Shown: positions 21,422 through 30,471 of the stretch, piece by piece | How the letters are laid out: each line of letters opens with the position of its first letter | Numbering within the stretch: the stretch's first letter is position 1 | From: Candidatus Altarchaeales archaeon ex4484_96 | Lineage (GTDB): Archaea > Altiarchaeota > Altiarchaeia > IMC4 > QMZM01 | Assembly (NCBI GenBank): GCA_002254405.1 | Contig: NJDH01000002.1 | Location: forward strand, 1-43,236 | Direction: 5' to 3' | DNA length: 43,236 bases | Translations under genes and position numbers: made by a program | Notes under the pieces: model-generated | What the model saw: the letters and a program-made list of their open reading frames with translations, nothing else | Told to the model about the DNA's origin: nothing | Databases searched by the model: none

Positions 21422-22687
21422 TTATAATCTTCCCTGGTATGCTGTTTTATCTGCGAGTTCCTCTTCTATTCTCATAAGCTGGTTGTATTTAGCGTTTCGC
21501 TCAGACCTGCATGGAGCGCCTGATTTAATCTGGCCTGTACCTAAACCTACAACCAAATCGGCTATGTATGAATCCTCTGTTTCTCCGCTTCTGTGTGATA
21601 CCATGGTGTTCCACCCATTTTTTGATGCGAGAGAGTGGGCTTCGATGCTTTCTGTTATGGTTCCAATCTGGTTTATTTTCAATAGGAGGGCATTACAGGC
21701 TTTTTTATCTATCGCCTGCCTTATCCTTTCCACATTAGTCACCAGCAAATCATCCCCCACAATCTGGAGTTTATCTTTAAAGTATTCTGTGAAGCGAATC
21801 CAGGAATACCAGTCATCCTCAGCGAAAGGATCTTCAAGCGAGACGATTGGATATTTGTTGAGCATCCTCTCATAGAGGGTTCCCAGCTCAGACCCGCTTA
21901 TTTTCTCCCCCCCGATAAGGTATTTACCGTTCTGGTAGAAACTGGATGCGGCTGCATCCATTCCCAGCTCGATTTCCTTAGAGTAGCCTAATTCATCAAC
22001 AGCCTCAAGTATGAGCTCAAGAGGCTCTTCTGGTTTAATCAGGGGAGGTGCGAATCCCCCCTCATCCCCAACGTTAATCGAGTTCATGCCGTATTTTCTT
22101 TTAAGTAAGTCTTTAAGCTCAATATATGTTTCAGAGCACATCATAACAGCCTGTTTGAAGTTGGCTGCCCCGGTTGGAAGAATCATGTACTCTTGGATAT
22201 CAAGTTTATTACCCGCGTGCTCTCCCCCGTTTATCACGTTCATGGAGGGGGTGGGCAGTATCAGTCTCTTGTTTGATGCAAGCTGTCCTATTCTCTCATA
22301 GAGGGGGATATTCAATTCTCTTGCGGAGGCTCTTGTAAGGCACATGCTGACTCCCAGTATAGCGTTAGCGCCTAATTTGGATTTATTTACGGTGCCATCC
22401 AGTTCAATCATCAGGTTATCGATTTCTTTTTGGTTGCGGCAGTCCATTCCTGCTATTTCCCTGGATATTATGTTGTTTACGTTATCTACTGCCCTAAGCA
22501 CTCCCTTGCCGTGATAGTTTTGATTGCCGTCTCTTAGCTCCAAGGCCTCGTGTATTCCCGTGCTGGCTCCCGAGGGTAGTATAGCCCGAACCTGTGATTT
22601 ATCTGTTGACATCTCCACCTCGACCGTGGGGTTGCCGCGTGAGTCTAATACCTGCCTTGCCTTGGTTTTTGTTATTTCATATGCCAT
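21422..22687 (-). CDS. eno: Enolase
   Basis: ITKTKARQVLDSRGNPTVEVEM... GASTGIHEALELRDG... SLEDPFAEDDW... MVSHRSGETEDSYIADLVVG. Confidence 0.97.
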   Translation of the reverse strand: MAYEITKTKARQVLDSRGNPTVEVEMSTDKSQVRAILPSGASTGIHEALELRDGNQNYHGKGVLRAVDNVNNIISREIAGMDCRNQKEIDNLMIELDGTVNKSKLGANAILGVSMCLTRASARELNIPLYERIGQLASNKRLILPTPSMNVINGGEHAGNKLDIQEYMILPTGAANFKQAVMMCSETYIELKDLLKRKYGMNSINVGDEGGFAPPLIKPEEPLELILEAVDELGYSKEIELGMDAAASSFYQNGKYLIGGEKISGSELGTLYERMLNKYPIVSLEDPFAEDDWYSWIRFTEYFKDKLQIVGDDLLVTNVERIRQAIDKKACNALLLKINQIGTITESIEAHSLASKNGWNTMVSHRSGETEDSYIADLVVGLGTGQIKSGAPCRSERNAKYNQLMRIEEELADKTAYQGRL

Positions 22688-22728
22688 TTTATCTACTATT
22701 TTATGGTTGAATATTTAAAAGATAGATT

Positions 22729-22746
22729 ATAATGATTAATCATTAT
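22729..22746. promoter_or_regulatory. Perfect 18-bp palindrome ATAATGATTAATCATTAT in the eno/ferredoxin intergenic region
   Basis: Read directly; identical to its reverse complement; 14 nt upstream of the ferredoxin ATG. Confidence 0.6.
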
Positions 22747-22760
22747 GAACGGTATTTAAA

Positions 22761-22943
22761 ATGGCAGACATACAAATCGACAAGGAAGCGTGTATAGGAT
22801 GCGGAGTATGCGTAAACAGCTGCCCTGTGGGAATATTCGAGATGGAAAACGACAAAGCCGCAACCAACGGCAACGTAGATGACTGCACCCTGTGCAAGAC
22901 ATGTGAAAGCTCATGCCCTGCTGGAGCAATAACCGTTACCTGA
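22761..22943 (+). CDS. 2x[4Fe-4S] ferredoxin
   Basis: CIGCGVCVNSCPVG and CTLCKTCESSCPAG motifs; 60 aa. Confidence 0.95.
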   Translation: MADIQIDKEACIGCGVCVNSCPVGIFEMENDKAATNGNVDDCTLCKTCESSCPAGAITVT

Positions 22944-27127: not shown

Positions 27128-29043
27128 TTAATGCCCCTTCTTTTCCATCTCCTGGATTTCTTTCACTATTTCAGGGTTGCTTAAGGTTGTCACATCACCC
27201 GTGTCCTCGTCGTTTGAGATGGCCGCAAGAACCCTTCTCATAATCTTACCTGAGCGGGTTTTAGGCATGTCGGGTACAATCCAGACATGCTTTGGTCTTG
27301 CTATTTTACCTATCTCATCACAGATGGCATCCGATACCTTAGCAGCAATCGCCTTATCAGGGGTGATTCCCGGCTTCAGAGAGATGTATACGTCAGGTAG
27401 CATACCCTTTATATCATCTTTAACCGGTACAACAGCTGCCTCAGCCACCTCCTCAACAACAAGAGACGCGGATTCCAGTTCCTTCGTTCCCAGACGGTGA
27501 CCTGCTACGTTAATAACGTCGTCAAGCCTGCCCAGTATCCTGAAATAACCGTCTTCAGCCAGCAAAGCAGCATCTCCAGCCAGATACGGCCAGTCGCGCC
27601 AGTCCTTGCTGTTCTTGTCCTTGCAGTATCTCCCGTAGTAGGTGTCAACGTACCTTTCCCGGTTGCCCCATATCGTCTGGAAAGCTCCAGGCCACGGGGC
27701 TTTAATGCAGATATTACCTGCCTTTCTTTCACCGGGTTTGATTTCCCTATCCTCGTCATCAAAGATAACAGGATGGATACCAGGTACACCAGGTCCTGCA
27801 CTGCCCGGCTTCATCGCATCCAACGCGGGCAGGGTGCTGCAAAGGAAACCGCCTGTCTCGGTCTGCCACCAGGTGTCGACAATCACTGCCTTACCCTTAC
27901 CAACCACATTATAGTACCATCTCCAGACCTCGGGCTCAATCGGCTCACCAACAGTCGTCATGTGCTTGAAGTTGTAGTTGTACTTTTTTGGTTCATCCGG
28001 ACCAACTTTTCTTAACGCCCTGATTGCTGTCGGAGAGGTGTGGAAGATGTTCACGTCAAGCTCTTCTGCTATCCTCCAAGGCCTTCCGGGATCCGGGTAG
28101 GTTGGCGCACCCTCGAATATTACCGTCGAAGCGGCTAATGCAAGAGGTCCATACACTATGTAGGAGTGTCCCGTAATCCAGCCAATGTCTGCCATACACC
28201 AGTACACATCCTCGGGATGAATATCCTGGACATACTTTGATGTGCCCGTAACATAGGAGAGATAACCTCCCGTGCTGTGCTGGCATCCCTTGGGTTTACC
28301 TGTTGTTCCGCTGGTGTACATCAGGAAAAGCGGGTCTTCTGCTGGCATCTTCACCGGGTCAACCCTGGCTCCGCGGTATTTCTTAAGCAGGTCGTTCACG
28401 AAAACATCCCTGCCATCGACCATCGGAGTCACAGCCGAAAATCCATTGTAATAAGGATATCGCTTTTCGAGTCCTCGATTCTTTCACCAGCTGCTTTGCC
28501 GCTGAATCCACCGAAAACCACTGAATGGATTATACCCAACCTTGCGCAAGCAAGCATGGTTATCGGAAGCTCCGGGACCATTGGTAGGTGGACCGTTACC
28601 CTATCACCTTTTTTCAATCCCATGTCTTTAAGCAGTGCAGCAAATTCGTTGACGCGCACATAGAGTTCCTGAAATGTTATGTGCTCGATTCGCTCCTCTT
28701 CGTTCTCCGAGACGAAATGAATCGCTGTCTTGTTTTTGTGCTTATCAAGGTGTCTGTCAACACAGTTGTAGCAGACGTTTATCTTCCCGCCTACAAACCA
28801 CTTCCAGCATGGTGCGTCGCTTGTGTCAAGTGTCGTGTCCCAGTACTCATACCAGTCCAGAAGGTCTGCGTATTCCTTGAAGCATTCCGGGTAATTATCC
28901 AGACTAAACCGCTCACGTATGTCGCTGTCGGTCATGTTCGCTTGGGCAATAAAGCTCGTGGGAGGTTTAAAATATTGCTCCTCCTGCCAGTGAACAGCTA
29001 TCTGTGCCTCAGATGCTTCTGTTTCTTCATCTGTTTTTGTCAT
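27128..29043 (-). pseudogene. acs: AMP-forming acetyl-CoA synthetase, disrupted into two ORFs (28429-29043 and 27128-28432)
   Basis: Upstream ORF ends ...SKSDILITMDFRL*; downstream ORF begins MTPMVDGRDVFVNDLL...YTSGTTGKPKG; different frames, with about 40 residues of the expected Acs sequence absent at the junction. Confidence 0.88.
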
Positions 29044-29080: not shown

Positions 29081-30340
29081 TTACTCGTTGTGATGTGGTG
29101 CCTTTGTAAGGAAGGCCAGTACTGCCGCTATCACACACATTACTCCGGATATGATAAAGGCCATATCGTAGCTTCCTAGTATGTCTTTAGCCTGTCCGGC
29201 CAGTATCGGTCCGATGATTCCTGCCACACCATAACCCAAAAATACCATAGCATAGTTTCCGCCATAGTTCTTTATTCCGAAGAAGTCCCTTGTAGCTGCC
29301 GGGAACAATGCGAAGTTTCCTCCGAACATGAAACCAATCCATGCCGCGGCTACCGCCAGTCCTGTGGTGTTCGAACCAAGACCCAAAAATATCAGGGCGA
29401 ACATCATCAAGGCCTGTAGGAAGAACATCAAAGCCATAGCCATTGGTCTTCCCAGTTTGTCGGATAACCAGCCCCATACTATCCTGCCAGCTCCATTAAA
29501 TATCGATAGTATTCCGACTGCTGTTCCAGCAGCAGCTGCCGCCAGCCCGGAGTCGATTCCATAAACCTTAAGTATTCCGATTGTCATCAAACCGGCTGAT
29601 GCGGCGAACACGAACATCACAAGAAGCATCCAGAACTGGGGTGTTTTTATCATAGCCCCACGCTCCCAGTCCTCTGATGTCGCGGTCTTGGCTGACGGTG
29701 CAGGTGGCACCCATCCTTCGGGTTTCCATCCAGCAGGTGGATTGCTCAGCAGAAATGCTCCAACACCTCCAACAGCTAAGAACATTATACCCCATATCTG
29801 CAGGGTACCGCCGAGGCCGTATTTTGCCAGAAGTTGTATTAAATCAATCTGTATTCCTATCATGTTTATTCCCTTACCTGAGAGAACGGATATGAAAAAC
29901 GCTCCGCCCCCGAATCCGGCTACTGCTAGACCTGTTGCCAGACCAAGTTTATCCGGGAACCACTTTCCTAGTGCCGCAATAGGGCATACGTAAGCTAATC
30001 CGATTCCTGCACCAGCTCCTATACCCAATGTCAGCAAGAACCACATGAAGTTTCCGGTCATGAAACCCGATGCCACGTATGATAATCCAAGCAATCCCGC
30101 ACCTACAAGCGCGATTTTCTGGGGACCCATCTTGTCCTGCAACTTACCAGCCCATACCATAACCAGAGCAAATGTTGCTAGTGCCACAGAGAATACTATC
30201 TGGGTTTCTGTTACACTCCATGCAAAATCTGCTTTCAGTTCAGCGGCAAAAACACTCCATGCATAAACTGCCCCTAAACATAATTGAAGCATAAGCGCCC
30301 CAATCATGACCAACCATCTATTACCTGCTTTTTCAGCCAT
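29081..30340 (-). CDS. MFS transporter, OFA (oxalate/formate antiporter) family
   Basis: 12-TM; LCLGAVYAWSVFAAELKADFAWSVTETQIVFSVALATFALVMVWAGKLQDKMGPQKIALVG; adjacent to acs. Confidence 0.9.
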   Translation of the reverse strand: MAEKAGNRWLVMIGALMLQLCLGAVYAWSVFAAELKADFAWSVTETQIVFSVALATFALVMVWAGKLQDKMGPQKIALVGAGLLGLSYVASGFMTGNFMWFLLTLGIGAGAGIGLAYVCPIAALGKWFPDKLGLATGLAVAGFGGGAFFISVLSGKGINMIGIQIDLIQLLAKYGLGGTLQIWGIMFLAVGGVGAFLLSNPPAGWKPEGWVPPAPSAKTATSEDWERGAMIKTPQFWMLLVMFVFAASAGLMTIGILKVYGIDSGLAAAAAGTAVGILSIFNGAGRIVWGWLSDKLGRPMAMALMFFLQALMMFALIFLGLGSNTTGLAVAAAWIGFMFGGNFALFPAATRDFFGIKNYGGNYAMVFLGYGVAGIIGPILAGQAKDILGSYDMAFIISGVMCVIAAVLAFLTKAPHHNE

Positions 30341-30382: not shown

Positions 30383-30405
30383 TTATCATTATTAATCATT
30401 GATAA
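30383..30405. promoter_or_regulatory. Inverted repeat TTATCA-N11-TGATAA overlapping the predicted MFS transcription start region
   Basis: Read directly: TTATCATTATTAATCATTGATAA; contains ATTAATCATT. Confidence 0.45.
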
Positions 30406-30456
30406 TAAGGTTATATAAATAAAAGATGAAGAATATTCGACTAAAGACGAAATATC

Positions 30457-30471
30457 ATGATTAATCATTAT
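30457..30471. promoter_or_regulatory. Palindrome ATGATTAATCAT(TAT), same motif as 22732-22746
   Basis: 15 nt identical to part of the eno/ferredoxin palindrome; 12-bp perfect palindrome core. Confidence 0.5.

Follow-up and report, generated by a model that had tools for sequence, protein, structure and literature searches.

The perfect 18-bp palindrome that lies between the divergent enolase and ferredoxin genes of an Altiarchaeota contig is almost certainly a genuine operator, shared by a coherent set of genes of energy and carbon metabolism. Comparative sequence analysis leads to an overall explanation that we hold with good confidence, namely that the palindrome and its relatives constitute the operator and the regulon of a transcription factor combining a PF03444 winged helix-turn-helix (wHTH) with a pair of CBS domains. 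The window, i.e., the whole stretch of 43,236 nt that was analysed, is contig 26 of a 919-kb archaeal MAG (G000) with an estimated completeness of 60%. No published description of an operator or regulon for this palindrome was found in open-access text, nor was any operator, regulon or ligand found there for the PF03444 wHTH + CBS family, which we take to be the predicted archaeal transcriptional regulators of COG2524. To our knowledge, operator and regulon have been established for few archaeal transcription factors, and for none in the uncultured Altiarchaeota.

A preliminary description of this DNA had placed the palindrome 14 nt ahead of the ferredoxin start codon, close to a TATA-like box, and had pointed to a 15-nt copy elsewhere in the window, and all these elements were recovered. 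The palindrome ATAATGATTAATCATTAT (operator 1) lies exactly at 22729-22746, with the core ATGATTAATCAT at 22732-22743, and nucleotides 22747-22760 separate it from the ferredoxin ATG at 22761; the ferredoxin TATA box TATTTAAA occupies positions 22712-22719 of the plus strand, with a gap of 10 bp to the 16-mer operator core, and the 15-nt copy ATGATTAATCATTAT is found exactly at 30457-30471. Operator 1 is the sole perfect palindrome of at least 16 bases in the whole window. The predicted regulated gene on its right (22761-22943, plus strand) encodes a 2[4Fe-4S] ferredoxin of 60 aa (Pfam Fer4, 3.6e-15), and the divergent enolase gene (21422-22687, minus strand; Pfam Enolase_C, 2.1e-124) has a probable TATA box, TTTAAATA, at 22753-22760 of the minus strand. 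In three species the operator is centred between the two divergent TATA boxes and forms an island of identity within the enolase-ferredoxin region, the stretch TTATAATGATTAATCATTAT around it being identical in G001 and G002. The distance from the end of the enolase-strand TATA box to the operator is 10 bp in G001 (TTTATATA) and 7 bp in G000 (TTTAAATA), a spacing from which enolase is probably co-regulated through operator 1, in keeping with the link to glycolysis advanced in the preliminary description. Ferredoxin genes that are not linked to enolase are also preceded by a site (G003, G008 and G011). A single-protein scan of the genome contigs with enolase as the query gave no match. As the palindrome has no loop, a reading as an RNA hairpin was discarded.

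The 15-nt copy sits between a thioredoxin-reductase-like gene and a gene for an MFS transporter, 114 nt upstream of the start codon of the latter (30340, minus strand). It belongs to a distal operator (operator 2, 30455-30470, core at 30457-30468) that matches 15 of 16 positions and lies upstream of the MFS TATA box (TTTATATA, 30412-30419, minus strand). Ten bp downstream of this box there is an additional proximal and degenerate site absent from the preliminary description, operator 3 (CAATGATTAATAATGA on the minus strand, 30386-30401), which matches 13 of 16 positions, and the same MFS gene in G001 and G002 has stronger copies (14/16). The transporter, predicted to be regulated (29081-30340, minus strand), is of the L-lactate or oxalate-formate type (NCBIfam SfMCT, 391 bits against a cut-off of 320), and its relatives in G001, G002 and G004 have sites as well. 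Downstream of it lies an AMP-forming acetyl-CoA synthetase gene (acs; 27128-29043, minus strand; Pfam ACAS_N and AMP-binding), which in G003 and G005 has an operator of its own. The acs gene of the window consists of two overlapping ORFs of the minus strand (28429-29043 and 27128-28432), whereas in relatives it is a single ORF (651 aa in G003, L137), so that the split may reflect either an assembly frameshift or a broken gene.

Beyond the window, a genome-wide search and a comparison with related genomes, both proposed in the preliminary description, found the motif above background in G000 and in its relatives. The core ATGATTAATCAT occurs three times in the 919 kb of G000, against 0.18 expected and none for the reversed pattern, a control that may give too few matches in coding DNA; the third copy is located on another contig, ~25 nt ahead of an hdrA-like gene. 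Measured against the same control, 12 genomes of the family to which G000 belongs contain 15 exact cores versus 0 and, when up to two mismatches are allowed, 55 copies of the 16-mer TAATGATTAATCATTA versus 7; G000 itself, with up to three mismatches allowed, has 12 copies of the 16-mer versus 2. Moreover, 54 of 62 sites with two mismatches in 16 are intergenic in sequence that is 16% noncoding and 84% coding (p = 9e-35), which excludes the case, considered beforehand, of a motif located mainly inside genes.

The genes behind the sites are, in several genera, the energy and carbon genes that had been anticipated. A site at the start of a ferredoxin gene is found in G000, G001, G002, G003, G008 and G011, and sites accompany hdrA-like genes in G000, G004, G005, G006, G011 and G012, lactate/oxalate-type MFS genes in G000, G001, G002 and G004, and acetyl-CoA synthetase genes in G003 and G005 in addition to the MFS-acs locus of the window. 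Further predicted members are PEP synthase (ppsA; G000), formylmethanofuran dehydrogenase A (FwdA; G002 and G011), the gamma subunit of pyruvate:ferredoxin oxidoreductase (POR; G001), Mrp/Ech-like membrane proteins (G000, G001, G003, G005, G011 and G012), lipoate ligase (G003, G005 and G008) and GcvH (G010 and G011), where the ferredoxins of G008 and G011, the PEP synthase of G000 and the MrpE of G001 and G003 were identified by their translated start and not by a profile. Genes of three of these classes (ferredoxin, hdrA-like and lipoate ligase) have sites in more than one genus and with differing neighbours, so that the pattern is not inherited synteny. These results support and extend the earlier idea that one dimeric regulator links glycolysis and ferredoxin with the use of organic acids; a single dimeric protein would bind at all the sites.

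Other genes were observed next to matches of the motif. A small protein of unknown function (~90-110 aa) has operator-like sites in three genomes (L005 1501-1894, L124 678-1080 and L138 1040-1817), and in G004 and G005 it comes after a gene resembling ATP synthase subunit D. Genes for stand-alone CBS-domain proteins of the MKVKEIMH... type adjoin sites in G011, G003 and the more distant G050 (L131, L045 and L321), and the same site, AAATGATTAATCATTA, accompanies the gene of a DUF6834-like protein, whose function is likewise unknown, in G002 and G011, which represent two genera (L052 631-1398 and L142 1-596). In G001, two identical intragenic matches (L119, 1084 and 2714) fall in an apparently repeated surface-protein gene and are probably a chance match copied by duplication. 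The ORF at L041 1539-1967 (G002) looks like an assembly chimera; a MetV-like reading of this gene was dropped, and the locus was not used as evidence because the fragment lies at the end of a contig and its cysteine-rich start runs into a GH35 domain.

The candidate regulator is a protein of 289 aa encoded in G000 (contig C51, 11607-12473, minus strand), whose gene is preceded by two degenerate sites according to the degenerate-site scan. It has an N-terminal PF03444 winged helix (2.9e-30, 104.2 bits against a curated cut-off of 21) and a C-terminal CBS pair (Pfam CBS, 2e-24, in two stretches), the same domain make-up as the PF03444 wHTH + CBS proteins of methanogens and Altiarchaeota, to which it is ~40-58% identical. 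The Pfam scan yielded PF03444, HTH_11, Rrf2 and CBS only, and membership of the TrmB family was rejected as no TrmB domains were present. Orthologs with 52-85% identity occur in G001, G003, G004, G005, G006, G010, G011 and G012, and the sequence GTIRNQMQ, a putative recognition helix, hardly varies among 34 orthologs, which fits with one motif being kept over long distances. The regulator gene has sites in its own promoter in G000, G001, G006 and G012, as well as in an IMC4 Altiarchaeales genome, and in G004 a site precedes the FKBP-regulator operon; no site was found directly before the gene in G003, G010 and G011. G010, an incomplete MAG, has the regulator gene together with one site versus one in the control. 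By sequence, the HTH part had no match among solved structures. For the G004 ortholog, AlphaFold gives a model (mean pLDDT 84.8) that comprises a winged helix (residues 1-73), a beta domain (84-166) and the CBS pair (172-288). Foldseek matched this pair to Bateman modules that bind nucleotides or SAM, among them AcuB (AMP/ADP/ATP) and MJ0100 (MTA/SAM). The second CBS repeat contains a canonical T-x-x-D motif (TRTD), which suggests binding of adenosyl nucleotides.

Relatives of the candidate were found at more than 550 archaeal loci. In the best 80 of them, the 250 bp upstream of the regulator gene contain 12 exact copies of ATGATNNATCAT, versus a single copy in the other ~480 kb (p = 1.5e-16), although the loci from Methanobrevibacter cannot be counted as mutually independent. 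In Methanobrevibacter a conserved block, TATCATGATAAATCATTA, stands directly upstream of the TATA box of this gene, and regulator loci of ANME-2 also have ATGATNNATCAT. In this line, the 51 other archaeal genomes examined gave 20 sites in the 13 with PF03444 versus 17 in the 38 without it (p = 0.001). Many exact ATGATNNATCAT matches fall inside genes in the methanogen genomes, and therefore a methanogen regulon is claimed for the regulator gene alone. Two PF03444-bearing genomes (G029 and G051) have an exact ATGATWWATCAT before an frhB-like gene for the beta subunit of F420-hydrogenase (L318 and L319). The hdrA gene was rejected as a shared methanogen target, the site of Methanobrevibacter olleyae being missing from the other Methanobacteriaceae hdrA promoters examined.

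From the own-promoter sites and the co-occurrence of motif and gene, the PF03444-CBS protein is the likely binder of the palindrome. A different assignment, which we consider improbable, gives the operator to another HTH protein, such as a dimer of the MarR, ArsR or TrmB type, and leaves the PF03444-CBS gene merely as one of its targets. Sequence data hardly distinguish a target from a regulator, sites occur in G002 and G008 (MAGs that are 75-80% complete) where no PF03444 gene was detected, and an unrelated HTH gene of G004 (L127) also has a site. Against this assignment, the PF03444-CBS promoter keeps its site in Methanobrevibacter and ANME-2, two groups in which most of the other conserved targets were not observed, the excess of the motif follows PF03444 across genomes, and no second HTH gene recurs beside the sites.

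A close-up view of the sites showed that the six columns flanking the search pattern on each side are also palindromic (TTTA...TAAA, ~0.55 bit each), giving an extended consensus, AATTTATAATGATTAATCATTATAAATT, with the core ATGAT-NN-ATCAT and a symmetry over ~28 bp. The 16-mer mostly begins 8-15 bp after a predicted TATA box and therefore covers the expected transcription start. This position and the very AT-rich composition of the motif could be those of a core-promoter element, either an initiator or a TATA-like AT-rich sequence, instead of an operator; such an element is very improbable in view of the length of the symmetry, of the few promoters per genome that have the motif, of same-family genomes without it (G007 and G009 have neither the 16-mer nor the PF03444 regulator gene) and of the sites that also occur upstream of the TATA box, as observed for the distal copies of the MFS gene and of the regulator's own gene and for Methanobrevibacter. 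Chance repetition of an AT-rich palindrome can practically be dismissed: with 0.23 palindromes of 18 bp expected per 43-kb window of such sequence a single one is by itself not surprising, but the counts refute this origin through the genome- and family-wide excess, the intergenic placement and the common targets.

For the PF03444-CBS factor, we propose that a homodimer, in which each subunit contributes the winged helix, the central beta domain and the C-terminal CBS pair, would bind the palindrome and sit just downstream of the TATA box, over the transcription start, where it would repress by blocking the recruitment of RNA polymerase. Archaeal factors that bind over the transcription start usually repress, and a role as repressor appears rather more plausible than not for the candidate. 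The single operator between enolase and ferredoxin would serve both divergent promoters, and the regulon would comprise ferredoxin, Hdr, the uptake and activation of acetate and lactate, PEP synthase, formylmethanofuran dehydrogenase, POR and ion-pumping membrane complexes. The CBS pair would sense adenylates, and hence energy charge, or a related adenosyl ligand; adenylates themselves are put forward tentatively, at slightly below even confidence. Acetyl-CoA synthetase and PEP synthase both form AMP, so that energy charge would be a natural signal.

Some of these features recall known regulators. CcpN of Bacillus subtilis is an HTH + CBS repressor of gluconeogenic genes with a small regulon (gapB, pckA and a small RNA). 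The candidate resembles it in pairing an HTH with a CBS pair and in having sites near the transcription starts, judged from predicted TATA boxes only, of gluconeogenic genes (ppsA and enolase), but differs from the bacterial protein in the archaeal TATA promoters on which it would act, in a much larger predicted regulon and in its predicted targets in ferredoxin, Hdr, C1 and acetate metabolism. AcuB of the Bacilli, a CBS (Bateman) protein, senses adenine nucleotides and tunes acetyl-CoA synthetase post-translationally via AcuC (PMC13121692). The folds matched by the candidate include this protein's CBS pair; the parallel between adenylates and acs is an analogy only, and, unlike the candidate, AcuB has no DNA-binding domain. 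Archaeal regulators of the TrmB type likewise connect glycolysis with gluconeogenesis and have binding sites close to promoters (e.g., PMC10817205), but they belong to another domain family, recognize another motif and respond to sugar ligands.

Altogether, the analysis adds to the preliminary description a named candidate regulator, a wider predicted regulon and copies of the same putative operator ahead of that regulator's gene in methanogens and ANME-2. The widespread PF03444-CBS family thereby gains a concrete candidate DNA site, which can be tested in tractable methanogens. More speculatively, one ATGAT-NN-ATCAT operator might define an ancient energy-charge regulon of Altiarchaeota, methanogens and ANME, in which AMP/ATP would be read through the CBS pair to switch the energy metabolism of ferredoxin, Hdr and acetyl-CoA; if true, such a regulon would be a transcriptional counterpart of AMPK. 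For energy-limited archaea, the finding suggests that acetate use, electron carriers and gluconeogenesis are tied to one signal.
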